Shown piece by piece: positions 6,719 through 60,503 of a stretch of 64,000 nt of DNA. The notes beneath the pieces were generated by a model that ran no database searches, was not told the origin of the DNA, and saw nothing but the letters and a program-made list of their open reading frames with translations. The position numbers were made by a program, and so were the translations under genes. The stretch's first letter is position 1. Each line of letters starts with the position of its first letter. Origin of the DNA: Neocallimastix lanati (nom. inval.) (taxonomy: Eukaryota > Neocallimastigomycota > Neocallimastigomycetes > Neocallimastigales > Neocallimastigaceae); NCBI GenBank assembly GCA_016946835.1, contig JACVTC010000094.1, positions 170,001 through 234,000 on the forward strand, written 5' to 3'.

Positions 6719-6732
6719 GATTAAGAGTCTCA
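6719..6732 (+). promoter_or_regulatory. Copia A primer-binding site (tRNA-Lys CUU anticodon arm)
   Basis: GATTAAGAGTCTCA lies immediately after the 5' LTR. Its complement TGAGACTCTTAATC is the anticodon stem-loop (about nt 27-40, anticodon CUU) of eukaryotic tRNA-Lys. This implies priming by an internally cleaved half-tRNA. The same 14-mer occurs at the same place in all other copia elements here. Confidence 0.85.
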
Positions 6733-7886
6733 ACTCATCCAGTTGAGCAATATATCAAAGCTAAGTTGAAAAATTTAATAATATATATATATTTATAACT
6801 ATAAATTTCATATATCTAACTTTTTTTTAAATTTACAGGAAACGATTTTTTTTTTGAACCAGAACCATCAATTACAAAATTTTGAGGACATAATAATAAA
6901 TAAATTAACATATATAGATAGTAACATATATAATAATGAAATAAAAATTAGATTATTTCAGATAAACACTCTTTAAAATAATTAATTAAGATGAAAATAA
7001 TTGATAGTCATCTAATTAAGTTACAAATTTAAGACATAGAGTCAACTAATAAACACTAATTTGAAAATATAAATTGAATGATAGTCAAATAGTGGTTGTT
7101 AAGTTGAAAATAATAATGATAAATAAAAAATGAATAAATTTAAATTAAGATAATTTCATCTAATATAAAAAGGAAGGAAATTATAGTCAACTAAATCAAA
7201 GTTGAAAATAATACTTTAATGTTGAACAAAAATAATAAAAATAATAATAATAAAAGGGGTGTATTATAAATATAAATATTTTATATAAATATAATAATTC
7301 GCAATTTAAAACAAACCAATGAAATAACAATTAATATATAAAGTATAACATATTTATAAATTTTAAATGAAATAATCTAAAAAACAAGAATAACAATAAC
7401 AACAAACAAAATTAAAAAATAAATATAAAATTTAAATTTAATATATTATTAATATCCAACATCTCATTTGATAATATATACTATTTATAGGAACCAATCG
7501 AAGTTATGATCAATTAATTTCAATATAAATAATCAATAAATGACAAACTAACTTCCAATCTAAAGTAGAATAATTAATAATATAAACGAATTCATTTAAA
7601 AATATCAAAATAAGTCATTAACCAAACATTTGATTGAATAAAATAAATTATTCTTTTACAAATGGAAATTTAGCCCAATCTCTAATCAATGTAATATATT
7701 TAATATATAAGGTCCCACCTATAAACAAACAGGTTTCCTTACAAATTTTTCAAATAATAATAACATCCATAATATATATATATATATAAAAACAGTGAAG
7801 AGCAAATTCAAATAGTAAATTGAAAACTATAAACAATTTCAATAAATACAATATAAAATATTAACAAATATTATCCGTTATTAAAG
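6733..7886 (+). other. Long untranslated leader of copia A
   Basis: 1.15 kb between the primer-binding site and the gag ATG with no sustained coding frame and a TA dinucleotide tract around 7776-7790. The other copia elements here have leaders of only about 60-170 bases, so this one is unusually long or contains an old insertion that could not be delimited. Confidence 0.6.
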
Positions 7887-8946
7887 ATGACATCTAGAAG
7901 AGGAAGACCACAATTAATCAATGTCGAAGACTCAAATATCCCACGCAAGATTAACTTCAATTATTCAGAAAATTTTAATAGAATAATTGAATTAAACACT
8001 GAAAATTATGTAGGATGGCGTAATAATATGTTATTCCTTCTAACTATAAATGATTTAGTAAGTTATGCAACTCAAGAAAAAGTAAAGAAACTGCGTAAAA
8101 GAGACATAAAAGAAAACCTTTCCAATTATATTGTAGATCAATTTGATGACTCACTAGTCTATGACAAGGGAACTAACGATAACGATATAAACAATGACAT
8201 TACGGCCAAATGGATGATTTTAAACAGTCTTGGAGAGAAGACTCAAGAAATTGTACAAGGGTATGGTAAAACAGCCCATCAAGTATGGAAAATTCTTAAA
8301 GCCTCTTTTACTAAAAGTGAGAAAACAAGAAAAATGGAACTAAAAAATAAATTAGAAGAAATCAAATTTGACGAAGATAAAGATATAAATATTTTTATGG
8401 CCGAACTTCAGAATACAATTGATGAACTTGAGAAGATAGATACCGACCTCACCAGTAGTACAAAAGTTGGTATTTTGAACAGGGCACTTCCCGAAAACCT
8501 TCGCTGGATAAACGTTTTCCAATATAAAGACGATTAGCTTAAGTGTTCTTCTTATGTAAGAGACACAATTCCAGAAATATTATCATCAAACCAAATGGAA
8601 TCTTTTAACATGAAAATAAATGAAACCAAAAATATTTTTTATTCACAAAACAAAAATCCAAAAGACCCATATAATAAAAGAAACATTAAATACAAATGAT
8701 GAAAAGAAAAATAGAAAAGGAAGAAATGGTAGATGCAATTATTGTAAGAAAATGGGTCACTATTTTTTTGAATGTAATAAAAGAAAACAAAACAAATTAA
8801 AACGAAAGAATTTTAAGAAAAACAATTATAAAAAATATTATTATAGAAACAATAAAAGAAATTATCAAAAAAATAAGAGATATGCGAATTTCATTCAAAA
8901 AGATAATTATAACACTTCTTATGCGGAATCTTTTAGTAAAGATTAA
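7887..8946 (+). pseudogene. Copia A Gag (nucleocapsid precursor)
   Basis: The ATG at 7887 opens a 216-residue frame with the DUF4219/UBN2-type Gag fold. FNYSENFNRIIELNTENYVG is followed by W, then HQVWKILKASFTKSEKTRKM and IKFDEDKDINIFMAELQNTI. A TAG at 8535-8537 interrupts it; the same frame resumes (LKCSSYVRDTIPEI) to about 8697. A frameshift then leads to 8620-8946, which holds the zinc knuckle CNYCKKMGHYFFEC (CCHC) and a Lys/Arg-rich RNA-binding tail, ending in TAA 8944-8946. Pol continues in this last frame, so translation would need read-through or the TAA is a lesion. Gag coats the RNA in virus-like particles. Confidence 0.85.
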
Positions 8947-12340: not shown

Positions 12341-12375
12341 TTGTTTATATACTCTAGAAATTCAATGCATTCAAT

Positions 12376-12421: not shown

Positions 12422-12433
12422 CTTGAGGGGGAA

Positions 12434-12665
12434 TGTTAGAAATAAAAACAACATTCATTTTTATTATTAATTTAAATATATCCAATTATTTGTTATGAAT
12501 AAATTAATGTATTGTTTCATGAATGATATAAATTATTCTATGATTCTTAAAAATAAAATTTCTCTTCTTAATCTTTTTATTGATAATTATAAATTCAAAA
12601 TAAAACTAATAAAAGATTACATAAATTAAAACTTTTATATTTGGTGTTTAAAATTGTTCTTAAAA
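12434..12665 (+). repeat. 3' LTR of copia A
   Basis: 232 bp, beginning TGTTAGAAATAAA right after the GAGGGGGAA purine tract and ending TTCTTAAAA, followed by the TSD TAAAA. Nearly identical to 6487-6718. Confidence 0.92.
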
Positions 12666-13620: not shown

Positions 13621-13689
13621 TAGTTTAACCCCGAGTCTACCATGTTTGATACGGGATGTCACTAAATACCTTGTATTTCCTATTAAATA

Positions 13690-15085
13690 CTCTTAATAAT
13701 AATAAAATAAAAATTATTATTAAATCTTATTATTAAAATCTTTTATTAATATTAAATATAATAAAAATTATTATTAAATATTCTTATAAAATATTTTATT
13801 AATATCAAATATAATAAAAATTATTATTAAATATACTTATAAATTTCTTTTATTAATATTAAATATAATAAAAATTATTATTAAATATTCTTATTAAAAT
13901 CTTTTATTAATATCAAATCTAATAAAAATAATTATTAAATATTCTTATAAAAATCTTTTATTAATATTAAATATAATAAAAATTATTATTAAATATTCTT
14001 ATAAAATATTTTATTAATATCAAATATAATAAAAATTATTATTAAATATTCTTATAAAATTCTTTTATTAATATTAAATATAATAAAAATTATTATTAAA
14101 TATTCTTATAAATTTCTTTTATTAATATCAAATATAATAAAAATTATTATTAAATATTCTAATAAATTTCTTTTATTAATATTAAATATAATAAAAATTA
14201 TTATTAAATATTCTTATAAAATTCTTTTATTAATATTAAATATAATAAAAATTATTATTAAATATTCTTATTAAAATCTTTTATTAATATCAAATATAAT
14301 AAAAATTATTATTAAATATTCTTATAAATTTCTTTTATTAATATTAAATCTAATAAAAATTATTATTAAATATTCTTATTAAAATCTTTTATTAATATCA
14401 AATATAATAAAAATTATTATTAAATATTCTTATAAAATTCTTTTATTAATATTAAATATAATAAAAATTATTATTAAATATTCTTATTAAAATCTTTTAT
14501 TAATATCAAATATAATAAAAATTATTATTAAATATTCTTATTAAAATCTTTTATAATAAAAATTATTATTAAATATTCTTATTAAAATCTTTTATTAATA
14601 TCAAATCTAATAAAAATTATTATTAAATATTCTTATTAAAATCTTTTATTAATATCAAATATAATAAAAATTATTATTAAATATTCTTATAAATTTCTTT
14701 TATTAATATTAAATCTAATAAAAATTATTATTAAATATTCTTATTAAAATCTTTTATTAATATCAAATATAATAAAAATTATTATTAAATATTCTTATTA
14801 AAATCTTTTATAATAAAAATTATTATTAAATATTCTTATTAAAATCTTTTATTAATATCAAATATAATAAAAATTATTATTAAATATTCTTATTAAAATC
14901 TTTTATAATAAAAATTATTATTAAATATTCTTATAAAATTCTTTTATTAATATTAAATATAATAAAAATTATTATTAAATATTCTTATTAAAATCTTTTA
15001 TTAATATCAAATCTAATAAAAATAATTATTAAATATTTTATTAAAATTAAATATAATAAAAATTATTACTAAATATTCTCATTAA
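13690..15085. repeat. Satellite array, ~54-bp unit, about 25 copies
   Basis: The unit is built of ATAATAAAAATTATTATT, then AAATATTCTTAT(T)AAA, then ATCTTTTATTAATAT, then CAAAT or TAAAT. Spacing between successive units is 54 bp (for example 13757 and 13811). Several units are shortened to about 38 bp by loss of the TTAATATCAAAT part (near 14550, 14810 and 14905). Each unit contains a near-palindrome around AAAAATT. Two subtypes (CAAATA / TAAATA) alternate in places, suggesting higher-order duplication. No coding potential. Confidence 0.9.
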
Positions 15086-24965: not shown

Positions 24966-25277
24966 TATTAAGAATTTATGTTTTTTTTAATTTTAGAATG
25001 TGTGATCACTTTATTAATTATATATAATTATTATTATATTTTTGTTAAAGGTTATTTTTTTAATTTTAATTATATGATTATAATCATTTACATTTCTTAA
25101 AAATTTAACTATATTTGTTTATACATGTAAAACTCTGATGTATATCAGGCATGCGCCTCATACATCTACATAACATACATATTTAATTTATAATTAAATA
25201 TAAATAAATATACTAATCTAAGTTAAATATACCAAATTATTATTCATTATTTAAGATATTAAACTTTATTTCTAACA
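24966..25277 (-). repeat. 3' LTR of copia B
   Basis: On the minus strand begins TGTTAGAAATAAAG after the purine tract and ends CTTAATA. Contains the GC-richer block TGATGTATATCA followed by ATGCGCC (about 25137-25156, plus strand). Confidence 0.92.
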
Positions 25278-25283
25278 TTCCCC

Positions 25284-26185
25284 CTAAAGTTTAAGATCCT
25301 TAAAGCTAGTGAGAATGTTTTCTCTGAATTTATTCATCAAAGTAGTATTTAAATACTTTGTAAATCCGTCTGATAAATTATATTCGGATTTAACATATTT
25401 CAAATTTATATATTTTTCTTTTATTAACTCCCTTATGCTATGATATCTCAAATCAATATACTTAGATTTCGGATTAATTGTTTCCTTTTCGCAGTTATAA
25501 ATAGTGGCTTTATTGTCAGTATTTATTGTTATACTGTTATTATTCAATCCAAGTTCCTTAAAAATGTTTCTATACCAAAGACAATGTCTTGCACATTCAT
25601 GTATACCATAATATTCGCTTTCTGCGGTAGAAACGGAAACACAATGTTGGAGTTTAGAATACCAACTTGTTGGAGCTGAATTTATTAACATCAAGAATCC
25701 TGTAGTAGATCTTCTAGTATCTTTATCTCCACCTAAATCTGCATCTACGTAGACTTTAAACTCGAGTTTATTATTATATGTAAATTTAATTCCATAATCA
25801 GGCATACCTTTTAGATATCTAAAAATTTTTATTACATTATACAAATTTTCATAGGTTGGATCCTTGGATTTTCTTGAAGCTCTACTTACTGAAAATAGGA
25901 TATCAGGTCTCGTACTTATAGCTAAGTACAATAAGGATCCAATTGCTTGTTTGTATTTTGTTGGATTAAATTTCTTTGATTTTAATATATTATTTTCGAT
26001 TGGAATCATGTTTGAAGTAGGTTTAAATTTGTTTATTTCAAATTTATTTAATATATCTTCTAAATATTTCTTTTGGTGTATAAAATAACCATCTTTGCAT
26101 TTAACAAATTTTATACCTATAATATAATCAACTTCACCTACATCAGTTGCTTCAAAATTTTCTTTTATTAAAGATTTTGTTTTAT
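25284..26185 (-). pseudogene. Copia B RT C-terminus and RNase H
   Basis: The frame continues from the RT after a 1-base shift at about 26185 (EEVK then KTK). It has the connection IIGIKFVKC and YFIHQKKYLEDIL, then IGSLLYLAISTRPD and RNase H KVYVDADLGGDKDTRRSTTG, STAESEYYGIHEC, INTDNKATIYN and LSDGFTKYLNT. It ends at 25284, six bases before the purine tract. RNase H removes the RNA strand during cDNA synthesis. Catalytic Asp, Glu and Asp are present. Confidence 0.88.
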
Positions 26186-28137
26186 TTTACTTCTTCTGAA
26201 GTACCAGCTACAATTATATCATCTACAGAAACTGCTAATAAACACTTAATATTATTATTTTCATCTTTCTTGATATATACACAAGGATCACTCAAGAATC
26301 TTTTAAAATTTAATTTTAACAATACCTTATTTAATGTTTCGTTCCACATTCTGCCAGATTGTTTAAGGCCGTATAATGCTTTGTTCAGTTTACAATACCC
26401 TTTTTGATTCATTCCTTCTGGCATACTCATATATATATCCTCTTCTAATCTAGCGTTCAAATATGCAGCTTTGATATCCATTTGATGAATATCAAATTTA
26501 TTTTGTACTGCAATCGCAATAATTGTTTTAAGTGTATCCTGTTTAAGTGTTGGCGAAAATGTATTTTTGTAATCTATTCCGTAAACTTGTGTATAACCTT
26601 TAGCAACTAATCTAGCTTTATACTTCACAATTTTACCGTTAGCATCTCTTTTATGTTTTAGTACCCACCTTGTTGACACAACATTAGCGTTCTTAGGTAC
26701 TTTATCCACAATTGTAAAAACATTCATCCTTTTCATATTACCTAACTCTTTATCAACAGCTTTTAACCACTTATCTTTATCTTTCATATTAAAGATATCA
26801 ATATAACTACGTGGTTCAATAAAATCATTTTCATTTGTTGATAAGAGTGCAACTGTATCTAGAATATCTTTTATTTTAAAAGAGCGTTTTGAAGGATGAC
26901 TAGTAATATTATATTCATCACGATAATGATATTTGCGTTTACATCTAGTTTTATTGTTTTTATTTTTATTTTTATTTAGATGTTGTTTATTAACGTCTTT
27001 ATACTTATTTCTATTATTAATATTATCTACTCTTTCAATTTGGTTTATTTCATTAGTATTATTAATATCATTAATGTTATTATTATTTTCATTAGTCTTA
27101 TAATTTTTCATTTGTTCCTTTGATTTTTGAGAAAGTTCTTTCAATTTATTTAATAAAAAATGAGTATCTTTTATTTTATCTGATTTCCTCTCTTTAATTG
27201 AATTTGCTTGTTTTATATCTTTAATTTTATTGATATTATCAATTTTATCATTATCACTTTTATCATTATTACTTTTATTTAAGGTAACACTTTTATTTAA
27301 ATTATTATTTATTTGTTTGTTTATATAATTTATTTTGTCCATATAAGTTACGTTATTTTGATAATTATTACTTGCAAATTCTTTATTATTATAACTATAC
27401 TCACTTCTTAGAGAATGCTTTTCATTTAAATTATTATTATTAAATTTACCTTTATTTAATTCTTCAATTAATTCATTAAAGAATTCACTATTATTTTCTT
27501 TATTATATTTATTTTGTTCATTTAAATTATTTTTATCATTTATATCTTCTTTGTTTACATCATTTTCTTTGTTTACATTATTTTTATTTTCTTCAATTAA
27601 ATTTTGATTTAAATTATAATTTATAGAATTGACATTTTTATTACTTACATTTAAATTATTAACGTCGTTGGTTTCTATATTATTATTTATGTTATTATTT
27701 TTATTATTTGTGAAATTGTCATTTGAATTATAATTATTTAGATCAAAATACTCATTGTTTACATTTTTTGATAAATTTGAATTATTTAAATTATTTTTAT
27801 TTCCTTCGATAATTAAATTATTTTTATTTATGTAATTATTGTGAGTTTCCAAATCCTGTATATTTTTATAATTAAAATCCTGCTTATTTATTCCCGTTAC
27901 GTCTTCATTGGTTTTCATATTGGTTATCTTATTTCCATTACTTTCTGTGACTTTACTTCCTAAATTCTGATTTAAATTATTATTTAAATTTAAATCATTT
28001 AAATTATTAATTTTAATTAAATTGTTAGTACTATAATTTTCTTTATTCCCATTATGAAAATTTATATTATTTTCTTTTTGGAAATAAATATTATTATTAT
28101 TATTTTCATTTATTTCTGTAAGGTTGTTTTTATTATT
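26182..28137 (-). pseudogene. Copia B Asn-rich linker and reverse transcriptase
   Basis: Same frame as the upstream protease-integrase part; a single TAA (28138-28140) separates them and no other stop occurs to 27918. The linker (about 27000-28137) is dominated by Asn, Lys, Glu and Asp. RT follows: FIEPRSYIDIFNM, KDKWLKAVDKELGNM, RWVLKHKRDANGK, RLVAKGYTQVYGIDYKNTFS, MDIKAAYLNARL, KLNKALYGLKQSGRMW and the active site SVDD (AVSVDDIIVAG). Tyr of the YVDD box is replaced by Ser. The stop at 26182 is due to the frameshift. Confidence 0.88.
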
Positions 28138-29943
28138 TTAATTTAAATTTAATGATGAATCATTAAATTCATGATTTGAATGTAAATTATTAAATCGGTA
28201 ATTTAAGTTGTAATTTGAAAAATTTTTATTATTATTTTCGAAATTACTGTTATATCGTAAAAGACCAATAGAATTATTTTGTGATAAATTATTTATATTA
28301 TTAAAATTATTTTGATTTAAATTATTTAAATTATTATATGGGACATTCATTTGATTTAAATTATTTATATTATTATATGGAACATTCATTTGATTTAAAT
28401 TATTATTTAAATTAATTTGATTTTCATTATTAAATAAATTATTATTGTTATTATTAATATTATAAACTTCATGATATTCATTATTATTGTTATCATTTAT
28501 ATCGTCTTCAATTTCTTCAGATTCATAAAATGGAGTAAAGTTAAAGATATCTGGAGAGGACAGAGGAGGACCTATATTTGCAGGTTCATCTTCAAGAAAT
28601 GCGACTGTTCGTGAAAGAATTATTTTATTATTATTAATATCATATATTCTATATGCTGTATGATTAATTTCGTCATAACCTAAGAATACACCTGATAGAG
28701 TTGTATTACAAAACTTCTTTCTGAATTGTTTAGGAACATAAAAGTACACTCGACAACCGAAAACTTTAAGTCTATTATAATCTACCTTTTGGTTATACAA
28801 TAATTCATATGGAATTTTATTATTATTACCTTTATGTGGTAATCGATTATGAATATAATTAGCCGTTGCAACTGCATCCTGCCAAAATTTATGACTTAAT
28901 TTAGCATCAGCTAACATTGCATCTCCATTAGATATCAATGTTCTGTGCAATCTTTCTACTCTACCGTTTTGTTGGGGGTTATGTGGTACTGTGTGTTCAT
29001 GAATTATTCCAGTTTTATTGTAAAACTCATTAAAATTATTATTGAAAAATTTTGTCCCATTATCTGTTTTTATGTATTTAATATTATAATTTTTAAATAT
29101 ATTTTTAATTTGATTATACCAAATAATAAAAGCATTATATACATCGCTTTTATTTTTAACAAATAGTACCCAACTATACCGTGTAAAATCATCGAGTATA
29201 GTTACAAAATATCTATTGTTATAAAATGAAAAATCAGGAGCCTTAACCAAATCCATGTGTAAAAGTTCAAAAGGTTCCTTTGTATGATTGATTGAAGGGT
29301 AATATGGTAAATTTGTAAGTTTTGATTTTAAACAAATTTTGCATTTTGGTGTAAAATTAATTTTCTTTAATTTATTTTTAATTAGGTCAATATTAAAATG
29401 ACCAAATCTTCTATGCCACAGATTCAAACTTGAGTCATTCGTGGCATCTTCAATATTATAACAAGTAACGTTATTGAAACTTGTAGATATATTACTTTTT
29501 GTTGTAAATATTTTGTAGACTTTAGATTCATTTGAATAACTTGTATATATTCTTTTTCCTTTATTATTATACAATAGAGCACACCTTTTATTATTGTATT
29601 TATTTTTATAGAAAACTATTTTATAATTGTCATCACTTAGATGGTCAATTGATAAAAGACTTCTTTTAAAAGATGGAACATATAGGACATCGTTTAATAT
29701 TATTTTGTGGTTATTGATTAATCCTATATATTTACCTATTAATTTTGATTCAACGACATCACCATTAGCAAAATGAATATTAATATGGTGATCATGTGTA
29801 TCTACTAAATTTTCTCTGTTATGGGTCATGTGATATGACCCCCAGAGTCTAAAGTCCATATTGTGATGTTACTGTTATTAATATTGGGTTTTTGGTTTTG
29901 GGCAGTATAATAACTTAAATTTTGCCCTTCTGGCTGAAGCCAT
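28138..29943 (-). pseudogene. Copia B protease (frameshifted) and integrase
   Basis: From the end of gag, one frame reads EWLQPEGQNLSYYTAQNQ and TIWTLDSGG. A missing base at about 29850 then shifts to GSYHMTHNRENLV, so the protease active-site Asp and the rest of the protein lie in different frames. Integrase shows the zinc finger (LWHRRFGHFNIDLI; CKICLKSK), LDDFTRYSWVLF, IKTDNGTKFF and NPQQNGRVERLHRTL (D, D, E). NYIHNRLPHKG and VFGCRVYFYVPK follow. Repeats of NLNQMNVPYNN occur in the linker at about 28330-28410. It ends with the TAA at 28138. Confidence 0.88.
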
Positions 29944-30963
29944 TCAACGAAATTTCTTGTTATCAGAAATTGCGCTATTCGATTGATTTATATTATCATC
30001 ATTATAATCGATGGATAACGCATTACCAAAAATCTCATTATAGTTTTCTCTTTCTTCTTTATCCAGGTTTACCTTAACATTATCAGCATGGTACTTTTCT
30101 TTTTTCTTTCTTTGGTCTTTATTTTCATATTTTCTTTTGTAGTTATTGTATCTTTTGTAGCTATTTTGTCTTCTTCTGAGGGTTTTGACTCTACAGTCAC
30201 GTGCTATATGGCCTGCTTTGCCACATTTGAAACATATAACCTTCCTCTTGTTATTTTGTTGATTGTTTATTTCTGAATTGTACACCTTAATTTTTTCTTG
30301 ATCACTTTTTAAACTTCGTAAATACTTTAATCTTGGAATAGTCTTTTTTAATTGTTCACAACATTTCTTCCAGTAATCTTGGTATGATATCACATTGGTT
30401 AATTGAATAATGTCGCTGGGTAGTGCATTATATAAATAATTAAATTTTCTTTCGTCACTTATTGACTCACCTAGTTCTTCTAACTTGTCAATTGTATTTA
30501 ATAATTTGGAAAGAAATATTCCAAAATCATCATTTATATTGTATTTTAAAGTATTCAACTTTTTGACTGTTTCTAATTTTATTTCTTCGTTATTCTTTAC
30601 AAAGAGTCCTTGTAAGTGGTTCCAAACTTCGTAAGCGGTTTTATTTTTAAAATCTATTGTACTTTTGGTTTTATCGTCAAGATTGGTACTCATTAAAAAT
30701 TTTGTTTTGTTATCGTTTTTAATCATTTCATCCGTGACATCTTCGGCATAGTAATATTTAGTTGAACCTCTGACGTTCTTACAATGGCCCTTCTTAGGCG
30801 AATTTTCGGTGATCATCTTTACATTCTCTTCGTATATATGATCATCTAAACCTTTATATGTTAACATGAGATCCATTTCTGAGGCCCACAATGGATAGTA
30901 GCTCGGTGTGAGTTCTCTTTTGGTAGCAGTAGTATTAACTACGTTAATTGAATTGTATTCCAT
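29944..30963 (-). CDS. Copia B Gag
   Basis: Open 339-residue frame from ATG 30963. SYYPLWASEMDLMLTYKGL is the N-terminal motif of copia Gag, followed by KTAYEVWNHLQGLFVKNNEE, DFGIFLSKLLNTIDKLEEL and SDERKFNYLYNALP (UBN2-type capsid region). The CCHC knuckle is CFKCGKAGHIARDC, with a basic tail after it. Gag ends in TGA at 29944; pol resumes at +1 relative to it (GAATGGCTTCAG). The ORF looks intact. The start follows a 160-base leader after the PBS and has a long A run before the ATG on the minus strand. Confidence 0.88.
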   Translation of the reverse strand: MEYNSINVVNTTATKRELTPSYYPLWASEMDLMLTYKGLDDHIYEENVKMITENSPKKGHCKNVRGSTKYYYAEDVTDEMIKNDNKTKFLMSTNLDDKTKSTIDFKNKTAYEVWNHLQGLFVKNNEEIKLETVKKLNTLKYNINDDFGIFLSKLLNTIDKLEELGESISDERKFNYLYNALPSDIIQLTNVISYQDYWKKCCEQLKKTIPRLKYLRSLKSDQEKIKVYNSEINNQQNNKRKVICFKCGKAGHIARDCRVKTLRRRQNSYKRYNNYKRKYENKDQRKKKEKYHADNVKVNLDKEERENYNEIFGNALSIDYNDDNINQSNSAISDNKKFR

Positions 30964-31122
30964 TTTTTTTTAATTTTTATGTTGAATGTAATTTAAATTT
31001 TAAATTTTAATTTTCTAAATTTGAAATTTCAAAATTAATTTAATTTTTAAATTTTGGTAAAAATGTTTTTTAATGTTTTATTAATAATCGTTTAGTTATT
31101 ATGGTAAGATTATTGAGCTGAT

Positions 31123-31136
31123 TGAGACTCTTAATC
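31123..31136 (-). promoter_or_regulatory. Copia B primer-binding site (tRNA-Lys CUU anticodon arm)
   Basis: Minus strand GATTAAGAGTCTCA directly after the 5' LTR. The plus strand therefore reads TGAGACTCTTAATC, the tRNA sequence itself. Confidence 0.85.
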
Positions 31137-31463
31137 TATTAAGAATTTATGTTTTTTTTAATTTTAGAATGTGTGATCACTTTATTATTTATATATAATT
31201 ATTATTATATTTTTGTTAAAGGTTATTTTTTTAATTTTAATTATATGATTATAATCATTTACATTTCTTAAAAATTTAATTTAACTATATTTGTTTATAC
31301 ATGTAAAACTCTGATGTATATCAGGCATGCGCCTCATACATCTACATAACATACATATTTAATTTATATTTAAATATAAATAAATATAAATAAATATACT
31401 AATCTAAGTTAAATATACCAAATTATTATTCATTATTTAAGATATTAAACTTTATTTCTAACA
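31137..31463 (-). repeat. 5' LTR of copia B
   Basis: 327 bp; ends match 24966-25277 and are flanked by the TSD GACTA. Extra tandem copies of TTAAT and AAATAAATAT account for the length difference. Confidence 0.92.
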
Positions 31464-32739: not shown

Positions 32740-33038
32740 TATTAAAAATATTTCTTTGAAATTGAGATTTCGATCTCTACTTTTAATAATATCTTTATTT
32801 AATAAAGTTATTGTTTATAATTAATTGTATAATACAATTATATAAACATTATTTATTACATTTAATATAACTATATTTGGTTGTTTATGTAAGTATATGA
32901 TGTACGTCATATATGCGCCACGATATATTTACATAACAATACATGTATAATTATTTAATATATTAATAATATTATATTCTAAGTTATTATATAACTAACT
33001 ATAATATAGTATCATAATATTAAACTTTATTTCTAACA
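32740..33038 (-). repeat. 3' LTR of copia C
   Basis: 299 bp, plus-strand ends TATTAAAAATATTTC and TTTCTAACA, followed by the purine tract (plus strand CCCCCTAAAG). Contains TGATGTACGTCA then ATGCGCC (about 32899-32919). Confidence 0.92.
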
Positions 33039-36365: not shown

Positions 36366-36686
36366 TTGTTGACTGCACTCATAATTTAACTATATATTTA
36401 ATTTATTTATTTATATTATTTATTTATATTTATGTGTATTTATTTATTTATATTTAATGATTACTTAAATGTATTATGATCTATCGTCTTGTATAAATCT
36501 ATGTTAATTATCTTTTAATATTTATTTAATTAATTTTTAATTTATTTTATGTTATGGAAAACGCATGTAGTAACATGTGACTTTATTACTTATTTAAAGC
36601 TGAAAGATAGATCATACACTTATTTCCCTTGTATACCATATTCCATAAGGAATATTATTATAGATCTAAATTTAATAAAGCTAACA
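36366..36686 (+). repeat. 5' LTR of copia E
   Basis: TGTTGACTGCACTC ... AAAGCTAACA; TG/CA ends intact. Contains several TTATTTATTTATATT runs and a GC-richer block around 36555-36625. Confidence 0.94.
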
Positions 36687-36700
36687 GATTAAGAGTCTCA
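36687..36700 (+). promoter_or_regulatory. Copia E primer-binding site (tRNA-Lys CUU anticodon arm)
   Basis: GATTAAGAGTCTCA directly after the LTR CA. Because the LTR end is unambiguous here, the primer 3' end can be placed at about tRNA nucleotide 40. Confidence 0.88.
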
Positions 36701-36761
36701 GTTGACTCATATTATTTATTATTAAAAGTACTTAATTAATTCGCTTCACCGCTCCGAAATC

Positions 36762-39700
36762 ATGCAAGACTTTAACTTAGCTAAGGACCAACGCCTCCAT
36801 GGAAAATCCAACTTTAATGAGTGGAAATTCCTTATTGACAATGCCGCTAAACGTCAAGGTATTAAGGAATTCATGGAAGTCGACGTCGTTGGAAAACTTA
36901 ATGATGTAGGTTTTGATTACAACCCCAATGTCAACGATGTTATCAACAAGGTAATTACTAAATTAATTACCAAAATGTTACCGCAAGCTCCTGCCGAACC
37001 TATTCGAAACAATAATGCTGAGGTTAATCGAAACAATAATGTTGATATCAATACTCAGCTAACTAACTTTTTTGGTAATCCTCTTAATCATATCAGATTA
37101 GTTGAGGAAGCAGAAAGGATCGATGCTGACATGATACTCATGATCAGTAAGAATGTCGATGATTCTGTTTTAAGAGAAATCAGCAGACTTAATAATGGTT
37201 TCCGTATAATGTAAAGACTCAAATCAAAATATGGAAATTCAAATGCTGATATGGAATACTGGCTTAAAAGATTAAGAAGTATTAAAGCCAGAGATAGAAA
37301 TCAAATCATCGAAAAGCTAGAACTTATGAAAGAAACTTTCGATGATATGGAAGAACAACATGTGGAGATCACTGATAAGGAAAAATTAAAATATCTCTAT
37401 AACGTACTACCGGATGATTATAAAAATATCATTCAAATTAATTTGAATAGTGACCCTAATGTATATATTAATAATCTCAAAAGTTTTATTTATGCAAAAT
37501 CTTACCTAGAAAATTGGGAAGATAACAAAACCATTGAAAAAGATGATCCAATGGATCTAGATTTTATCAGTAGAGGAAGAAGAACTAGTAATTCCTCAAA
37601 GAAAAGTGAACACAACAACCATAATAACAAAAGCTCTAACTCTAAGAAAAGAGGAAAGCAAAATGGTAACCAATATAACAATAATAATAAAGATAATAGT
37701 AACAAAGACAATAATAATAAATCATATTGTCACATTTGTGAAGTTAAAGGACACTCTACCAGAAACTGCATATATAATATGAAGACGAGGTCAAATCATA
37801 ATAAAGGGAGGCAAGAAAAGCTTCAAGTAAAGACCACATTAAATGATCATCCAAGGAAGTCTTTACATTTAATAAGTAAAATTTCTGATCCAGACAGTGC
37901 CAGTAGTTATGACGATAATTTTGATTTTGAAGACGCAAGGGCACTGATAGAAAAACAAGAAGAAATAAACATTGACAATAAGGTTAAATTTTCTGGATTA
38001 ATTGAATACGTGAATGATAGTTCTATTATTCCAAAGGAGATAACAATTCCTAATAAAAAAGAGGAATTATATGTAAACAACATCAATTATTATGAAGAAA
38101 ATGATAAGACTAGTGAATGGTTATATGATACTGGTGCTGGAGAACATATAACTAATGATTTTAATTTGCTAAATAATTTTATTCACTGCAAAATAAAGTT
38201 AAGATGCGCCAATGGGACAATGTGTAGCTTCGAAGGATATGGTACTTACGAATGTTACATTAATGGAATATATGTACGACTAGACAAGGTATTATATTCA
38301 AAATCTGCAACTAAAAATCTTATTAGTGGAATAGAACTGGCCAAAATAGGATATAGAGTCATTATTGACACTGATGATTATACACGTGGTAGATTTAACT
38401 TATGGGGTCCAAATAATGTATATATAGGAACTTATTATTCTACAAATGATAATCAATTCTTAGTAAATACTTACAAGATTAATAAAAACTTTGAAGAAAA
38501 GGATAAAAATATTATGGCTTTAAACGAAGTTGATGAAAAAAGCCTTGAAATTTGGCATAGAAGACTAGGTCATTATTACCTAGAAAACATAAACAAATAT
38601 CTAAGTTTACACCAAATAAAAACTCCTAAATGCATAGAATGTAAAGTAGCTAAAATGTCAAGAAAATCACACGGAGGAAAAATACCGAAAGCTACGAAAA
38701 TATTGGAAATAATACATTCAGACATTTCAGGTCCATACAATTCATCTATCAATAATAAAAAATACTTTATTACATTCATGGATGAATTCTCAAGAAAAGT
38801 ATGGATATATACTTTAAAATCTAAAGCCGAAGCTCCCGAATTAATTGTGGAATTCTTCAAGTACTTAAATAACCAATTTGAAGAATATAATATTAAAATA
38901 TTTAAATCAGATGGAGGAAAGGAATTTAAAAATAAAACAGTTAATAAATACTGTAAAGAAAATGGAATAGAAAAAACCTATTCTCCCCCAGGTTGTCCTG
39001 AAGTTAATGGAAAAGCTGAAAGAATAAACAGAACTCTTAGAAATTCAGCTAAAACTCTTCTATATTGGGCAGAATTATCAGAAAACTTTTGGAATTTCGC
39101 CATAAAACAGGCATGCTACATATATAACTTAATTCCCCATTCAGGAAATAAATTTTTAATACCCAATGAAGTATTTTACAACAAAAAGGTAGAGTTAAAA
39201 CATTTAAAAACCTTTGGTTGTGTGTGTTATTACAGGGATGATACACAACACAAATCAAAATTTTTACCAAATGCTAAGAAGGGCGTATTCTTGGGATTTG
39301 ATGATAAAAAATATTCATATATTATCATGGATATTGAAAATAATAAAATACATTATACTAACGATGTAGAATTCGTTGAAGAAGAGCCTAGTAAACACAA
39401 ATACGAAACAAGCAATTATAAAGACTCTTACTTCTCATTTATGAAAGACAACAATAGAAAAGATATGAATCCAGAAGATAATATTATAAATGAAGATAAT
39501 AATATAAATGAAGATAATAATATGAACAATGAAAATAATTTTAATGGAAGAAACATCTTAAATGAAGAAAACAGTTTAAATGAAAATATTAATAATGAAA
39601 GGACTACTAATACAGAACATAAAAGTAATTACATTAAAAATAAGCATGTCAATAATATATCGTTAAATGAAGAAAATCAAGAATTTGATAATAAAGATAT

Positions 39701-42386
39701 AAACCAGAAAAATAACCATAATTTAAATAAAGATGTTGAAATTAATTCTAAAATTAATCCTGAAATTAAAAATAAAAATAATTGTGAATTTAAATTGAAA
39801 TTCAATTTCAACAATGTTGACAAAAATAATTCTGAAAATAATTATTTGAATGAGATAAATAGAAATTTAGAAATAATAAATAAAAATTATAATAAAAAGT
39901 TTAGAAATAATACTAAGAATACCAATTTTAATTCTAACATTATTGAAAAATATAAACCAGAAGATCCTGCTTACGCCGCCTCAACTTCCAGCAGGAACAA
40001 AGGAAAAGAAAAAATAACCGAATTTGAAAATTTTGATAAAAATAAAATATTTTTAAATAATGAAAAATCAAGCCAAAATTTACAGAATTTTACAATAAAT
40101 AATAATAATATGAAAAAAAATTTTAATAATAAAAATTTTTCAAAAAATGATGAAAAAATTCAAGAAAATCTATTGGCTGTAGCAAAATCATATTCATATC
40201 ATATCAAAAAATTTTCAAATAATTCAATAATTTCAAATAACACTAATGAATCACATATTACATATGACAACAATAATGATTCACATAAATCTATTAATAA
40301 TTCAAATAAATCAATGAATATCAAAAATTTTCCAAAAAATGATCAAAATTTTATTAATAAAAATTTTTTATCGAAAAATAATAAATTAATTCAACAAAAT
40401 TCAAAATCCAGCGACTCTATGAAGAAAAACTATAATTTCTCCACTCCTACAATAGATATCAATAATATTCCTTCAGATAATAAAAATACGGTAATGGAAA
40501 ATCTTAAAAATATAACTCTTCCATATAATTTTAATCAGAATTTACCTTTAATAACCGATTCTTCAACCAACCAAATTTCTCAAAAAACAGACGAAATTTC
40601 ACTTACTAATAATAACGAAATAAATAATAAATTTAGCAACAATAATATAGTAAACAAAGAAAATTATGCCCATAAATCTCTTATAGATGCATCAAGTGTT
40701 ATTGATTTTAATAAAGATGAAATTATGGATGACATTGTAGCCAATACAGAATATGGCAATATCCATAAAAGACCACTTAGTCCAAAATATAAAGAGACTG
40801 CACCTACTAATATTAGTTCTCGTAGAAAACTAGACCAAATCAACGACATTATTATTGCTTCTATATTTTGTCACATTCCTAATACGTATGAAGAAGCAAT
40901 AAACAGTGAAGACAAAAATAACTGGATTGAGGCTATTAATGATGAACTTAATAACCTTTATTCTAATAATATTATGACTTTTGTTAAAAATGTACCTAAA
41001 AACAAGAACATCATTACCACAAAATGGGTTTTCAACACTAAACGTGATTCAAATAATAATATTTATAAATATAAAGCTCGTTTAGTTGCTCGTGGATTTA
41101 AACAAAAATGGGGAATCGATTATGAATTAACTTATTCTCCTACTCTAAACATTGATGGTCTTAAATTAATATTCGCTATTTCTGCTGCTCTTAAGTGGAA
41201 TATTTTCCAGCTAGATATAAAGGCCGCTTACCTTAATGCTCCGCTTGATAAAGATATTTATACTACTATTCCTAAAGGCGATACGCGCTTTGGGCGGGGA
41301 TATTGGAAGCTCAACAAAGCTTTGTATGGCCTTAAGCAATCTGGTAGACAATGGTATAATACCATTAGAAAATTCCTAATAAAAAATGAGTTCATTCAAA
41401 TTAAATCCGAACAATGTATTTTCAAATTTACAAAAAATAATATAACAAAATGCATTATCGGCTTGTACGTGGACGACATGGTCATCGCTGGAGAAAACGA
41501 ATACATTAAACAAATAATAAATAAAATAAAATCAAAATTTAAAATATCTAAATGTGATCCAATTGAATACATATTAGGAATTGAAGTAAAGAAAGAAAAT
41601 AATTCATATATTATTTCACAGAAAAATTTTATAAATAATATGTTATATAAATTTAATATTGATAATACAAAGAAAAGAAAAACACCATGTACTGGTGATA
41701 ATAAAATATCAGAAAACAATAAACCTTTCGATAAAACAATCTACAAAAGCGCAATAGGTTCCTTAATATACCTTTCGAAATGTACTAGACCTGACATAGC
41801 TTTCGCTGTAAATAAAGCTTCAAGAAAATGTGAAAATCCAACTATATCGGATTGGAACAAAATAATAAATATTCTAAAATATATTAATAGTACCAAAGAA
41901 TTTAAGATAGAATATAATGGAAAGGGGGAGCTTGTTGCATATACCGACTCTGACTTTGCCGGCTGTTTGGAAGATAGAAAATCTACCTCAGGAGGAATAA
42001 TACTTATGGGAACAAGTCCGATATGCTGGTTGTCCAAGAAACAAACAAGTGTTGCTACGTCTACTGCTGAAGCAGAGTACATAAGCACTTCCGAAAATAT
42101 AAAGAAAATATTATGGATTAGAAATATAATAAAAGAAATTTTAAACAAATGGATAACTGTTAAAATCTATACAGATAATCAAGCAAGTAAGAAAATAATG
42201 GAGAACGGAGAAATAAATACAAAATTAAAGCATATAAGTGTAAGATATCATTTCAACAGGGACAATATTGCAAAGAAGAAAGTAAAATTAGAATATATTG
42301 ATACTGAAAACATGCTAGCGGACATATTAACCAAGGACTCAAATGGACCAAAGATACAAAAATTTACAAACAACATTTTTATCTAA
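36762..42386 (+). CDS. Copia E Gag-Pol polyprotein (one internal stop)
   Basis: The start ATG 36762 is 61 bases after the PBS. Gag N-terminus: KDQRLHGKSNFNEWKFLI. TAA at codon 151 (37212), with the same frame resuming as RLKSKYGNSNADMEYWLKRL. CCHC knuckle CHICEVKGHSTRNC from about residue 323. Protease WLYDTGAGEHIT (about 453). Integrase zinc WHRRLGHYYL and CIECKVAK (about 596-630), catalytic Asp 674 (MDEFSRKVW), Asp 717 (KSDGGKEF) and Glu 753 (GKAERINR), spacing 35. Asn-rich linker about 900-1340. RT has RLVARGFKQKWGIDY, LDIKAAYLNAPL and YVDD at 1569. RNase H has YTDSDFAGCLEDRKST, TSTAEAEYI, YTDNQASK and MLADILTK. Gag and Pol share one frame, so protease cleavage, not frameshifting, would separate them. 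Confidence 0.95.
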
Positions 42387-42406
42387 AAATATTATTTGAG
42401 GGGGAG

Positions 42407-42722
42407 TGTTGACTGCACTCATAATTTAACTATATATTTAATTTATTTATTTATAGTATTTATTTATATTTATGTGTATTTATTTATTTATATTTAATGA
42501 TTACTTAAATGTATTATGATCTATCGTCTTGTATAAATCTATGTTAATTATCTTTTAATATTTATTTAATTTTTAATTTATTTTATGTTATGGAAAACGC
42601 ATGTAGTAACATGTGACTTTATTACTTATTTAAAGCTGAAAGATAGATCATACACTTATTTCCCTTGTATACCATATTCCATAAGGAATATTATTATAGA
42701 TCTAAATTTAATAAAGCTAACA
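42407..42722 (+). repeat. 3' LTR of copia E
   Basis: 316 bp, preceded by the purine tract GAGGGGGAG and followed by the TSD ATTAT. It lacks 5 bp (an AATTA-type unit) relative to the 5' LTR. Confidence 0.94.
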
Positions 42723-45397: not shown

Positions 45398-45564
45398 TTT
45401 GTTTTATTTTTATTTATTATTTTTTTTTAAAGACAACAAAATAAAATATGTAATTACTATATTGAATAATCAATAAATGATTTAATCGTTATTAAAAAAA
45501 TATTTCTGAATTTTAATATTAAAAACTCGTTATATAATATTATAAAACACTAGTAGAGTCAAAC

Positions 45565-45578
45565 TGAGACTCTTAATC
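45565..45578 (-). promoter_or_regulatory. Copia C primer-binding site (tRNA-Lys CUU anticodon arm)
   Basis: Minus strand GATTAAGAGTCTCA adjoining the 5' LTR; leader to gag about 167 bases. Confidence 0.85.
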
Positions 45579-45835
45579 TATTAAAAATATTTCTTTGAAA
45601 TTGAGATTTCGATCTCTACTTTTAATAATATCTTTATTTAATAAGGTTATTGTTTATAATTAATTGTATAATACAATTATATAAACATTATTTATTACAT
45701 TTAATATAACTATATTTGGTTGTTTATGTAAGTATATGATGTACGTTATATATGCGCCACGATATATTTACATAACAATACATGTTTAATTATTTAATAT
45801 ATTAATAATATTATATTCTAAGTTATTAAATAACT

Positions 45836-46041
45836 TGTTAGAATATGTGAATATGATGTTATAATATGTGAATATGAGATTAATGTAATAAAATGTAATG
45901 TAATATAAATAATGTATTAGCCATAATGTATTAATATAAAAGCATTTAATTTAGAATAATTAAGTGCTAGTAACTCTTTATCACAAAAATATATTAATAA
46001 AGTTGACATAATTATAAAACCTAAATTCTTAATTCTTAACA
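45836..46041 (+). repeat. 5' LTR of the TRIM
   Basis: Starts with two tandem copies of a ~21-bp block (TTAGAATATGTGAATATGAT, TTATAATATGTGAATATGAG). Ends AATTCTTAACA. Confidence 0.92.
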
Positions 46042-46055
46042 GATTAAGAGTCTCA
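46042..46055 (+). promoter_or_regulatory. TRIM primer-binding site
   Basis: GATTAAGAGTCTCA directly after the LTR, identical to the full-length copia elements in the window. Confidence 0.88.
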
Positions 46056-46919
46056 TCGACTCTTAGAAAGGATTCTTTGGAATAGAAATTCTTAGCCGAA
46101 TGTAATATTATGTCAAAGAAATAAATTGGAAACTAAAATTGTGATAAAAGTTGCTCATTATGTCAATCTTAGAAAAATAAATAAATTTGATTTTGAACAT
46201 TTGAAATGATCAAGATTACAAAAATTGAAGAAACGCGTAAAAATTTAATATAGTTGATAAAAGAGAATCCCCAAGTAGAATAAAAGTAAATTAAAGCTCT
46301 AAACATATTGAAACATTAAATAAATAGAGATAAACAAGCTTAAGCATATATTAGTATAAATTATATTTCCTCATACAATACTGAGACTCTTAATGAAAAT
46401 TATACTGAAAACATTAAAACATTAATTGATAATTAAATATCTTTTGAATATTATATAGCATATTTTATTAAAGAATAATTTATAAATACAATATTGATTC
46501 TTAAATGATGTAATACCCAAGAGGTTATCATACAATAAACAAATAGCGTAAATCCTAACGAGTAGCTATAAACATAATTAAATGGCGTAAAACCTAAAGA
46601 ATAGCCATAAATATAAACATTTATATAAAGATAGGATTGGTATAAAACCATAAGAGTATTCAACCTACAATAAACATTAAGTTTGAATTATATTAAAGGT
46701 TTAAACGTTTAACCATAAAAACGTAATAGTATTTAATAATATAAATTTTTGAATAAAATAAATAAAAAATATGCATTAAATGTTTAAAATTTCAATTAAG
46801 AAAAATTTATAAAAGAGAATAAAATTTTGTAAAAATTAAATTTTGGAATAATAGTAATTTGCACATATTCACCTATAAACCGAATTTTATCTTTTAGAAA
46901 AACTAGGTTTAGGGAGGAA
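46056..46919 (+). other. TRIM interior, non-coding
   Basis: No domain on either strand. At 46381-46393 the tRNA-sense string TGAGACTCTTAAT appears, inverted relative to the PBS. At about 46535-46620 two ~40-bp units repeat (AATAGCGTAAATCCTAACGA / AATGGCGTAAAACCTAAAGA). An antisense frame at 46451-46663 repeats YSLGFT because of these units; I do not regard it as a gene. Confidence 0.7.
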
Positions 46920-47125
46920 TGTTAGAATATGTGAATATGATGTTATAATATGTGAATATGAGATTAATGTAATAAAATGTAATGTAATATAAATAATGTA
47001 TTAGCCATAATGTATTAATATAAAAGCATTTAATTTAGAATAATTAAGTGCTAGTAACTCTTTATCACAAAAATATATTAATAAAGTTGACATAATTATA
47101 AAACCTAAATTCTTAATTCTTAACA
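46920..47125 (+). repeat. 3' LTR of the TRIM
   Basis: 206 bp, matching the 5' copy base for base as far as I can read, followed by the TSD TAACT. Confidence 0.92.
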
Positions 47126-54219: not shown

Positions 54220-54224
54220 TTATG

Positions 54225-56112: not shown

Positions 56113-56472
56113 TTAATTATTTATTTGTGTATCTGAAAGATAAATATTATTATGAATTTCAATTACGTCATTAAAAGAAAAATTTCTATTATTAGCTTTT
56201 GGAATATTTTTTTCATTAATTATATTAATTTTTTTAATAGTGTTATTTATTTCTTCATTATTTGGAAGATCATTAGTCATCACATAAATATTTTCTATAT
56301 CTTCTATTTCCATATTGGAATTTATAGATTTATTAGCTTTATTATTTAGTTTACTTTGAATTTTCTTTTTTATTGCAGGTGTGATAATTGGGACAGGATT
56401 ATCAATTAACTTTTTATTAGCTTCTTTTAGAAAAGGAGTTGATTTTGAGTTATTTTTATTTCCCTGCTGCAA
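56113..56472 (-). pseudogene. Gypsy G4 Gag-protease linker
   Basis: KSTPFLKEANKKLIDNPVPI and ITPAIKKKIQSKLNNKANKS resemble the G3 linker (NPSPFATPDLRKKKENELHN). The function is unknown. The region on either side (55902-56112, 56473-57050) is Asn-rich with many stops. Confidence 0.55.
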
Positions 56473-57700: not shown

Positions 57701-58262
57701 GTTGTTCTAATTTTGATATTCCTAATTACCGTTATTATTATCTGGTTTGTTTCGCTCCTTCTCTGCTTCTTCATCCGTTTCAGCAATTTCGTTAGCTTCA
57801 TTCAAGGAATCACATTTTGGCATAAATACTTGAGAATAAGTAAAAGTTCTTGAATTTATGGCATTCCTATAAGTTTTTACTAAAACAATTTTTTGTTAGT
57901 CTCTTGACAAATCGTGATTTAATCTTTTACATCTATCATTAAAAGTTTCTATTGTTTCATATTTTTAATTTTTAATCCTTGAAGGTAGGTTAATTTATCT
58001 CCTTCAATAATGCCAAGATATTTTTCTACTACTTTTTGAATTTCCTTTAGAGAAGGGTACACATCTGATCTTTTATCTTTTAGTCTTCATAAAGCAGCTT
58101 TGGTATATGAATCCACAGCTTCAGAAGTCCAAGTGAAAATTCTCAGGATCTTTAATATTACAAACTCTCATTAGGTTGCTAAGATCTTCAATCCAATTCA
58201 CTACATTATAATCATAGTCTTCTAGTAAAGGGAGGACTTTATAGATTTTCAAAGAATCCATG
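57701..58262 (-). pseudogene. Gypsy G4 Gag N-terminal part
   Basis: ATG at about 58262: MDSLKIYKVLPLLEDYDYN, VVNWIEDLSNLMRVCNIKDP. Further pieces are ETIETFNDRCKRLNHDLSRD and FTYSQVFMPKCDSLNEANEI in changing frames. The arrangement matches G2 and G3 Gag (ERWYDQFVTWI; FNTKYLELYNNL). At least four disruptions. Confidence 0.65.
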
Positions 58263-58666
58263 TTTATTATTATTTCTTTATTATAATGTATATTATATAT
58301 TATTAATTATTTTTAATATATATATATAATTCTCTGAATTTCTTGACTATTTGTTTTAAATTTTCAAGTCTGTGAATTATATCTACTCTATTGCTTTATT
58401 TAATTTTCGATTCTATTCACCCCTTATTCTCTTTAAAACAAATCCAGTAATATCTCAGTAATAATGTAATTTTATAACTGAGTTTATATGTTTTTATATA
58501 TTTATAAAATTACCACATTATAGTATTATTTTTTTTATAATTTTTTTTATTTTGTAATTTATTTTTTTTTTATTTTTTTATTTTTATAATTATTATTTAT
58601 TTAATTTATATACAATAATTTTCACGATATTTTCTTGCTTGCTACGCCTGGATTCTCCATCAAAAA
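58263..58666 (-). other. Gypsy G4 leader with PBS-like sequence
   Basis: AT-rich. At 58648-58663 the minus strand reads TGATGGAGAATCCAGG, placed like the G2 PBS (TGGTGGAGATATC) a few bases from a TGATTGATAC string at 58667 that could be the LTR edge. By analogy this is a mutated PBS. A nearby inverted pair CACGATATTTTC / GAAATATCGT spans 58622-58740. Confidence 0.4.
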
Positions 58667-59931
58667 TGATTGATACAATTAATTTAAAAAATATCATAAA
58701 ATATTGGATAAGCAAGAGGGAATTAATCAGGAAATATCGTATTTATTAAATAGTATAATAATTATTATATATTTATTTAATACAATCAATGTAAAGATTT
58801 AATAAAATCTTTAATAATTAATTATGTAATAATTAATTAATGTAATAAAATTACATAAATTTATGATTTACATATATAAAAATTAATTATAAATTTATGT
58901 AAACTTTTCATAAAGGATAAATTATTATTTAAATAATTCTGGATAATAAATTTAATCTAAAAAAATTTATTTATTTTAGTTATTTTAGTTTATTTAAATT
59001 AGTTATTTTATTTAACTTAGTTAATTTAGTTTAGTTAGTTTAAAATACTTTAAAATTAATTTCGGAATATTTTAAATAGTTAAAATTAGTTTAAATAGTT
59101 TACAAAAATAGTTTTGATTTATAAATATATAAACATTACTATCAATAATATTTAAATAATAAATAATAATAAATGAGTTCTTATTGAATTTAATTATTAT
59201 TGTAAATAAGTTGAAAGTTTATTGAATTAATTATTGTTTAGTTTTAGTTAATTATTATTTAATAAAATTATTAATAAATTTTTTTTTTATAAATAAATAA
59301 TAATATATGTATATTAAATAGGTTTGATATATTAAAATGTAATCATGAAAAAATATAAATACATGTAAAATTCATTATTTAAATCGATGTATTAGTTATT
59401 GACTATCAACTAGTTAATAACAATAAGTGATTTGTTTTTATTAATTAATAAAGATTATTTTATTTGAAAAACAAATTTTTATTACGTGTTCTTTTAATTT
59501 TAGTGTTAAAATTTTGTTATTTGTAATCTGTTTCCATTAGAACATTTTACACTCAAATTATTATTTTAGAATACAATATTCATTTTATTATATTTATTTA
59601 TTAAAATAATTATTCCCTTTATTATATTTATTTATTGAAATAATTATTCACTATTATTCACTCTCAATTAATATATTAAAATAAAATAAAAACACAACAT
59701 TTTTTTATAATTAAAACTTCCTAATTTTTATCATGTTATTCTCTATATTATTATTATTAAAATTTGTATTTATTATATAATTAATATATTTTTTATAATA
59801 AACTTATATTAATAATAAAATAATAAAATAATTTTATATATTATATCTTATATAAAATAAATATTAATTTTAACTTATTTAGAAAATATTAATAATAAAA
59901 TTATTTACAATATTATTTAAAATAATAAATA
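58667..59931. other. AT-rich region, possible G4 LTR remnant
   Basis: No gene. It may contain the 5' LTR of G4, but without a second copy its far edge cannot be set. Simple repeats of TTTAGTTA type lie at 58975-59100. Confidence 0.4.
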
Positions 59932-60489
59932 TGTTAGGTTTTCAAACTAAAATTCCTTTCATCAAAATACAAAATTCATTTTTCGTACGAAATATAAAAA
60001 TTTCTATTATATATTTCTGAATCTTATTTTATATTATTTTATTTTAATTAGATAGTTATTAGTTAAATTAATTTAGCCTTTAAAATATAATATTAAATTA
60101 TTAAAAAAGCCCTTTTCCAATAAAAGAAAACAAACAGAAGAAGGTGTTATAAAATAATAATAAAAAAAAAATTAATTAATACTTATTTAGTAATAATTAA
60201 AAAAAAAATTTATATAAATATGATAAAAATTAATATTTTTTATTTCAGAGGTAGTTTTTTAGAAAAAAGAAGTTTAAAAGGAATTTTATTTTTAAAATAT
60301 AACGAGAAGAAGTTATATTTACAAAAGGTGTTTGTGTTTTAATAAATAAAAAGTAAACAAAAGAAAAATTTTTCATTTTAGTACAAATCATTTTATTAGT
60401 TTAATAAATAATAAATTTTATAATAAATAAGGTTTATATTAAAAATTTTTTGTTCATTATTGAATTTTAATAGTCGAACTTATCTAAAA
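59932..60489 (+). repeat. Candidate 5' LTR of copia F
   Basis: Starts TGTTAGGTTTTC, matching the TGTTAG start of other copia LTRs, and ends TTATCTAAAA directly before the PBS. The left boundary is inferred from this motif only, since the 3' LTR is outside the window. Confidence 0.55.
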
Positions 60490-60503
60490 GATTAAGAGTC
60501 TCA
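60490..60503 (+). promoter_or_regulatory. Copia F primer-binding site (tRNA-Lys CUU anticodon arm)
   Basis: GATTAAGAGTCTCA, the sixth copy of the shared PBS in this window, in an element otherwise clearly divergent from the rest. Confidence 0.85.

Follow-up and report, generated by a model that had tools for sequence, protein, structure and literature searches.

A shared, probable primer-binding site in the copia elements of the window

The window analysed here is a 64-kb stretch (64,000 nucleotides, nt) of the Neocallimastix lanati genome, corresponding to positions 170,001 to 234,000 of contig JACVTC010000094.1 in assembly GCA_016946835.1. Five Ty1/copia elements, named A, B, C, E and F, were found in it, together with one 1.29-kb non-autonomous element, and the 14-mer GATTAAGAGTCTCA is distributed over all six. 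We assign a probability of about 0.86 to the reading that this 14-mer is the minus-strand primer-binding site (PBS) of a host-wide set of Ty1/copia and short elements, and that tRNA-Lys(CUU), cleaved between C40 and U41, supplies its 40-nt 5' half as the primer. The window contains six exact matches, precisely at the six coordinates named in the initial annotation, against a chance expectation of 3.4e-4 per 64 kb given the dinucleotide composition of the window. When up to three mismatches are allowed, the count is little informative (15 versus a shuffle mean of 8.0). The GC content of the window is 15-28%, except for a single 2-kb stretch at 10%.

The elements have a Ty1/copia (Pseudoviridae) organization, with an integrase preceding the reverse transcriptase (RT), an RT of the RVT_2 type, two long terminal repeats (LTRs) and a 5-bp target-site duplication (TSD). 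The rve and RVT_2 domains follow each other in a single open reading frame (ORF) in A and E, and in separate ORFs in B and C. Element A, on the forward strand, has a 5' LTR at 6487-6718 that pairs with the 3' LTR at 12434-12665 (TSD TAAAA), and its PBS at 6719-6732 lies directly 3' of the 5' LTR. Element B occupies 24966-31463 on the reverse strand, from its 3' LTR (24966-25277) to its 5' LTR (31137-31463), with TSD TAGTC, integrase and RT domains, and the PBS at 31123-31136. Element E (36367-42722, forward strand) has LTRs at 36367-36686 and 42407-42722, TSD ATTAT, pol domains and the PBS at 36687-36700. Element C lies on the reverse strand; its PBS at 45565-45578 adjoins the 5' LTR at 45579, and its 3' LTR is at 32740-33038. 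No TSD was found for C, the 5' LTR of which is split by the small non-autonomous element. This small element spans 1,290 bp (45836-47125, forward strand), with two 206-nt LTRs that are 100% identical (45836-46041 and 46920-47125), TSD TAACT and the PBS at 46042-46055. The PBS of element F is at 60490-60503 on the forward strand.

A 5' LTR paired with a 3' LTR thus directly precedes the site in five of the six elements (A, B, C, E and the small element), and in four (A, B, E and the small element) the TSD places the LTR end immediately before the first G of the site. The initial annotation had the site following the 5' LTR in all six; this holds for those five, and in F there are only diverged LTR pieces (87-90% identity), next to which the exact end was not placed. 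Every copia RT of the window found by tblastn (A, B, C, E and F) lies downstream of one site.

Match to the host tRNA-Lys(CUU)

The host genome holding the window comprises 199 Mb in 762 contigs. A tRNA-Lys(CTT) pattern has 73 matches in it, and ARAGORN names tRNA-Lys(ctt) in all ten loci scanned. These loci are intronless and have an identical anticodon arm, TGAGACTCTTAATCTCA. The 14-mer is the perfect complement of nt 27-40 of this tRNA, which bears out the proposed identity of the primer as tRNA-Lys(CUU). As in elements of the Hemivirus type, the PBS is complementary to an internal tRNA segment instead of the CCA end, in agreement with the earlier argument that an internally cut 5' half is needed. 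The tRNA-Lys(TTT) was ruled out as the source of the site by its different anticodon arm. The tRNA genes occur in arrays (loci L001-L010), and on one host contig (C188) the tRNA-Lys(CTT) matches switch strand every 5-6 kb.

CBM_10 fungal-dockerin domains, which we take to be a mark of gut fungi, are present in the host genome (150 scored of 1,440 candidates) and in none of 14 control genomes, supporting the previous assignment of the DNA to a gut fungus.

Genome-wide copy number and distribution over divergent RTs

The exact 14-mer occurs 1,902 times in the host genome, where the dinucleotide composition of the window predicts 1.06 copies by chance and a reversed-pattern control gives none. 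Subtraction of the 73 tRNA-gene matches leaves about 1,829 sites, which would represent lysine half-tRNA priming at the scale of a genome and extend it to an anaerobic gut fungus. With up to one mismatch there are 2,573 sites, the exact ones included, compared to 22 for the reversed pattern. Two 1-mismatch copies were seen on opposite strands of host contig C2 (444485-444524), with starts 26 nt apart.

We selected 20 RT loci from the 150 best-scoring of 2,891 RVT_2 candidates. An exact site is located upstream and in the same orientation in 18 of the 20, and the RT stretch ends 4.0-5.4 kb beyond it. The two loci lacking it, L015 and L021, are apart in the RT tree, each beside a site-bearing element: the L015 RT is 84% identical to that of L011 (support 98/96), and L021 groups with window element A (89/93). 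The RT of L015 contains a stop, and upstream of it lies a second integrase-like match, which is weak. At L021 an insertion upstream of the RT is likely, because an opposite-strand site lies upstream. The 25 RTs of the tree form two groups, with supports that are not strong (81/90 and 86/88), plus F, whose RT is the most diverged. Identities go down to about 40%, so the claim that one site is common to diverse copia elements stands.

No relatives were found in viral_contigs. A 3,419-base contig of a Methanosphaera metagenome-assembled genome (SUTQ01000046.1) encodes a copia RT with 68% identity to the query and is likely a eukaryotic contamination of the archaeal bin. This contig carries no PBS site, but it is too short to extend to the site position.

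Probable position of the primer end

Sequences flanking the site were compared in a set of 108 sites, of which 82 are located in 80 stretches, 20 in the RT loci (18 of them RT-linked) and 6 in the window. A 72% flank-identity cut sorts them into 58 groups; in AT-rich flanks this cut can join unrelated sequences (window element B groups with L025), and the groups are not exact families.

The 3' piece was retrieved for 16 of the 20 RT loci, and 13 of these 16 have LTR pairs. In 12 of the 13 the last base of the 5' LTR directly adjoins the site; in L025 the LTR end is not discernible. A 5-bp TSD is readable in 10 of the 13 (L011, L012, L016, L018, L019, L020, L022, L026, L029 and L030). The LTR alignments of L012 and L018 extend five bases further, and there the TSD fixes the LTR end; the TSDs of L026 and L030 lie inside an ATAAT-rich repeat and are less certain. 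The TSD is ambiguous in L017, and none was seen in L023. The base preceding the site, which is the last base of the LTR, is A in 106 of the 108 sites. At the other end pairing stops at nt 27, the next base being the complementary C in only 3 of the 58 groups.

The LTR pairs and 5-bp TSDs most likely imply a 40-nt 5' half-tRNA primer ending at C40, because the last base of the LTR would be the first base copied if integration uses untrimmed ends. The initial annotation had placed the cleavage in or just after the anticodon loop; an internal cut is supported, and the LTR junction refines its position to C40. In Drosophila copia, which is primed by the initiator tRNA-Met, the primer ends at nt 39, as opposed to the nt 40 implied here. 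In the gut-fungus elements the tRNA-Lys half might end at nt 39, as in copia, or at nt 41, an alternative that we consider possible but unlikely. The 13-mer core of the site has 2,064 copies in the genome, and in 162 of these the first base is not the pairing G; this G, which would pair with C40, is nonetheless present in 1,902 of the 2,064 (both counts include tRNA genes) despite the low GC content of the window (15-28%, with the 2-kb stretch at 10%). The terminal A of the LTR is able to pair with U41, yet the LTR end directly precedes the G in every resolved pair.

Sequences following the PBS

The 30 nt after the PBS were tested for pairing with the tRNA D arm and with the PBS itself, using dinucleotide shuffles of the same 30 nt as control, for which about 3 of the 58 groups are expected at p<0.05; the p-values are optimistic, since the groups may be related. 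Complementarity to the D arm reaches p<0.05 in 15 of the 58 groups, folding back on the PBS in 17 and duplex pairing with the PBS in 15. At least one of these signals is present in 30 groups and none in 28. With a smaller number of shuffles, a previous run had 16 groups for folding, 15 for the D arm and 32 for neither. Hairpin formation between the PBS and the adjoining LTR sequence is non-significant (6/58 at p<0.05). In a first hairpin control, which used positions +31 to +60 of the same element, the adjacent segment was stronger in 53 of the 58 groups. This comparison is weakened by a difference in GC (0.26 vs 0.18), and the hairpin result rests on the shuffled control for that reason.

Judging from complementarity, some families probably pair with the tRNA beyond the 14-mer, into the D arm (nt 10-26). 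In element A, a second block, CCAGTTGAGC (6739-6748), resembles the complement of the tRNA-Lys D arm (CCGATTGAGC) and is also part of a short hairpin. The D-arm duplex of A is predicted at -15.8 kcal/mol, and that of the representative of its flank group (L038) at -16.4 kcal/mol (p=0.010). In another site (L098) the 14-mer is followed by ATCTCAACCGATTGAG, a stretch that keeps register with nt 7-26 at 13 of 20 positions. The exact block CCGATTGAG occurs at most 8 nt after the PBS in 115 places, up to 73 of which are tRNA genes, leaving about 42. The comparison between tRNAs covered the ten species found within L001-L010. The Val, Ser, Gln, Asp, Asn and Arg tRNAs were dismissed as the D-arm source, as these unrelated host tRNAs pair in only 2-6 of the 58 groups.

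Some families have a PBS that can enter a predicted local hairpin, which the tRNA would have to open. In element E, GACTC (36704-36708) is the inverted partner of GAGTC in the PBS; the predicted fold has -7.3 kcal/mol, and that of the representative of its group (L018+) -8.0 kcal/mol (p=0.025). In element C, GACTCT (45555-45560, reverse strand) is the inverted partner of AGAGTC (-9.3 kcal/mol, p=0.035), and in the small element GACTCTTA (46058-46065) is an 8-bp inverted partner of TAAGAGTC in the PBS (-10.9 kcal/mol). ACTCT, an inverted PBS partner, lies at most 8 nt after the PBS in 542 places of the genome. The hairpin and D-arm variants provide natural comparisons for primer placement.

An internal 13-mer in short elements

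The small element contains, in addition, an opposite-strand copy of the PBS 14-mer with 13 of 14 matches (46382-46395), 340 nt after the PBS, which the initial annotation did not include. Within it TGAGACTCTTAAT (46382-46394) is a sense copy of tRNA-Lys nt 27-39 and is complementary to positions 2-14 of the element's own PBS. Nine relatives selected for the internal 13-mer all carry it at 276-340 nt; their flanks differ, and other blocks of the internal region are also conserved. Of 13 relatives selected by the PBS flank alone, three have the 13-mer (1-2 mismatches, 342-354 nt) and ten do not (at least 4 mismatches). The internal 13-mer is thus a mark of some short-element subfamilies and not of the whole group. 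Its carriers are the small element, L127-L135, L138, L144 and L150, where it stands 276-354 nt downstream of the complementary PBS. The short elements probably use the machinery of the Ty1/copia elements.

Proposed priming mechanism and alternatives

Priming by the 5' half of tRNA-Lys(CUU) would proceed as follows. A nuclease would cut the anticodon stem of the tRNA in its 3' strand, after C40 and before U41, and the 5' half would be packaged. The half-tRNA would anneal over 14 bp, and over a longer stretch in the D-arm families. With C40 paired to the G at position 1 of the site, the RT would then extend it into the U5 region of the LTR. The cutting, packaging and extension steps are modelled on copia and Ty5 (PMC5371799). 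The match to the host tRNA gene, the exact LTR junction, the genome-wide copy number and the spread over divergent RTs are direct observations.

Several points weigh against this reading. The half-tRNA in the cell, its packaging, its extension and the cut at 40/41 are all deduced from sequence and analogy. The 20 RT loci are a non-random sample, drawn from the top of the RVT_2 scores, and the flank sites were chosen by exact match, so that they cannot test conservation within the 14-mer. The D-arm signal is nearly equal for tRNA-Lys(TTT) (13/58), tRNA-Ile (12/58) and tRNA-Ala (9/58); these share the GCTCA...GAGC D stem, and thus the D-arm test alone cannot single out tRNA-Lys(CTT). As to the primer end, pairing of the terminal LTR A with U41 would permit a 41-nt primer, and trimming of one base may permit a 39-nt primer.

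In self-priming of the Tf1 type, a cut piece of the element RNA complementary to the PBS would serve as primer. This piece could be the nearby GACTCTTA partner or, in some short elements, the 13-mer that lies about 300 nt further on. Such a primer would be consistent with the enrichment of partner sequences downstream of the PBS (17 groups by folding, 15 by duplex) and with the sense copy of tRNA nt 27-39. However, a primer that ends at the LTR junction has to cover the first PBS base, which is paired in only 9 of the 58 predicted folds, and the LTRs of five window elements hold no consistent long complement of the PBS (the best have 8, 7, 5, 7 and 5 nt in A, B, E, the small element and C, respectively). 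A primer made from the internal 13-mer would end at the nt-39 base, which does not fit the LTR end of the small element. Moreover, a single 14-mer is common to elements whose partners vary, which the tRNA accounts for. We regard self-priming as very improbable. That the site is left over from a common ancestor, or from bursts of a few families, and has no present primer function is barely credible: many copies do come from near-identical families, as seen in runs of equal RT match scores, but the non-coding 14-mer is identical across elements with RT identities of about 40-60%, and its flanks form as many as 58 groups.

Within half-tRNA priming by tRNA-Lys(CUU), a broader and tentative scheme, which we think is probably not correct in full, can be drawn. 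The copia population and its short parasites would be locked to one tRNA half, and the PBS would have two states: a local hairpin with a tRNA-like strand supplied by the element (GACTCTTA), opened by the 5' tRNA-Lys half, which in other families would pair over two blocks (nt 27-40 and about 10-24). In some short-element subfamilies the 13-nt copy located 276-354 nt downstream would act as a decoy, as a switch of folding or as a second site of priming, for the plus strand. Taken together, these arrangements would stand midway between half-tRNA priming and the Conserved Hairpin Site of fungal GalEa, which does without a tRNA. If one class of elements depends on one tRNA fragment, this fungus would offer a clean test of how half-tRNAs are produced and chosen as primers.

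Other features of the window

Retrotransposons are nested between 24966 and 47125, where E lies within C, the small element lies within the 5' LTR of C, and B adjoins gypsy-type integrase pieces. One search for a PBS of the gypsy elements determined none. Downstream of A, 37 overlapping copies of a 300-nt reference make up a tandem array (13651-15000) that repeats about every 54 bp.

Comparison with known systems

The initial annotation had regarded the use of a Lys half-tRNA as a novelty, which does not hold, since related primers have been published for other fungi. For the FunCo1 clade of fungal Copia, reported to be almost wholly confined to Pezizomycotina, Donnart et al. (2017, PMC5445492) give a PBS that is the complement of an internal stretch of tRNA-Lys, and this PBS, ATTAAGAGTCT, is contained in the gut-fungus 14-mer. 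In the parts of that paper available to us the FunCo1 PBS is termed classical, and half-tRNA cleavage, primer end, D-arm pairing and a hairpin are not discussed; the likeness concerns the PBS. Other fungal primers binding at the anticodon loop are described for Copia and Helenus terminal-repeat retrotransposons in miniature (TRIMs), where autonomous and short non-autonomous elements share such PBSs and a 5-bp TSD, as they do here (Kojima 2024, PMC10886601). The primers there are tRNA-Tyr, Ile, Asp, Asn and iMet, several per host, and tRNA-Lys is not named in the section of that study available to us.

Drosophila copia and yeast Ty5 are copia-type elements of the Hemivirus type with an internally cleaved tRNA primer (PMC5371799 and PMC8515867), and the gut-fungus elements resemble them by their sequence match. 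The Ty5 primer is the initiator tRNA-Met (PMC5371799). A survey of plant elements lists half-tRNA-Met and half-tRNA-Ile in Copia lineages (PMC6317226).

The Conserved Hairpin Site of fungal GalEa also includes an inverted partner sequence immediately 3' of the LTR, which allows folding at the position of the PBS (PMC5445492). GalEa has no tRNA-complementary PBS, whereas in the gut-fungus elements hairpin and tRNA site coincide. The GalEa site itself, a palindromic 9-bp CHSeq1 together with CHSeq2, is not what is found here; the site is the tRNA-Lys 14-mer, and only the hairpin-like arrangement is shared.

Literature searches, which covered few subscription papers and are therefore weak evidence of absence, found no report of the site in gut fungi, nor of a D-arm extension or hairpin at a tRNA-Lys PBS. 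The primer type is already known in other fungi; here nearly all sampled elements share it, and the D-arm and hairpin additions had no counterpart in these searches. The pattern is genome-wide and strong, and the initial annotation read its essentials correctly. Since other fungi show patterns of this kind, what is of interest is the scale, the implied 40-nt primer end and the two arrangements that follow the PBS.

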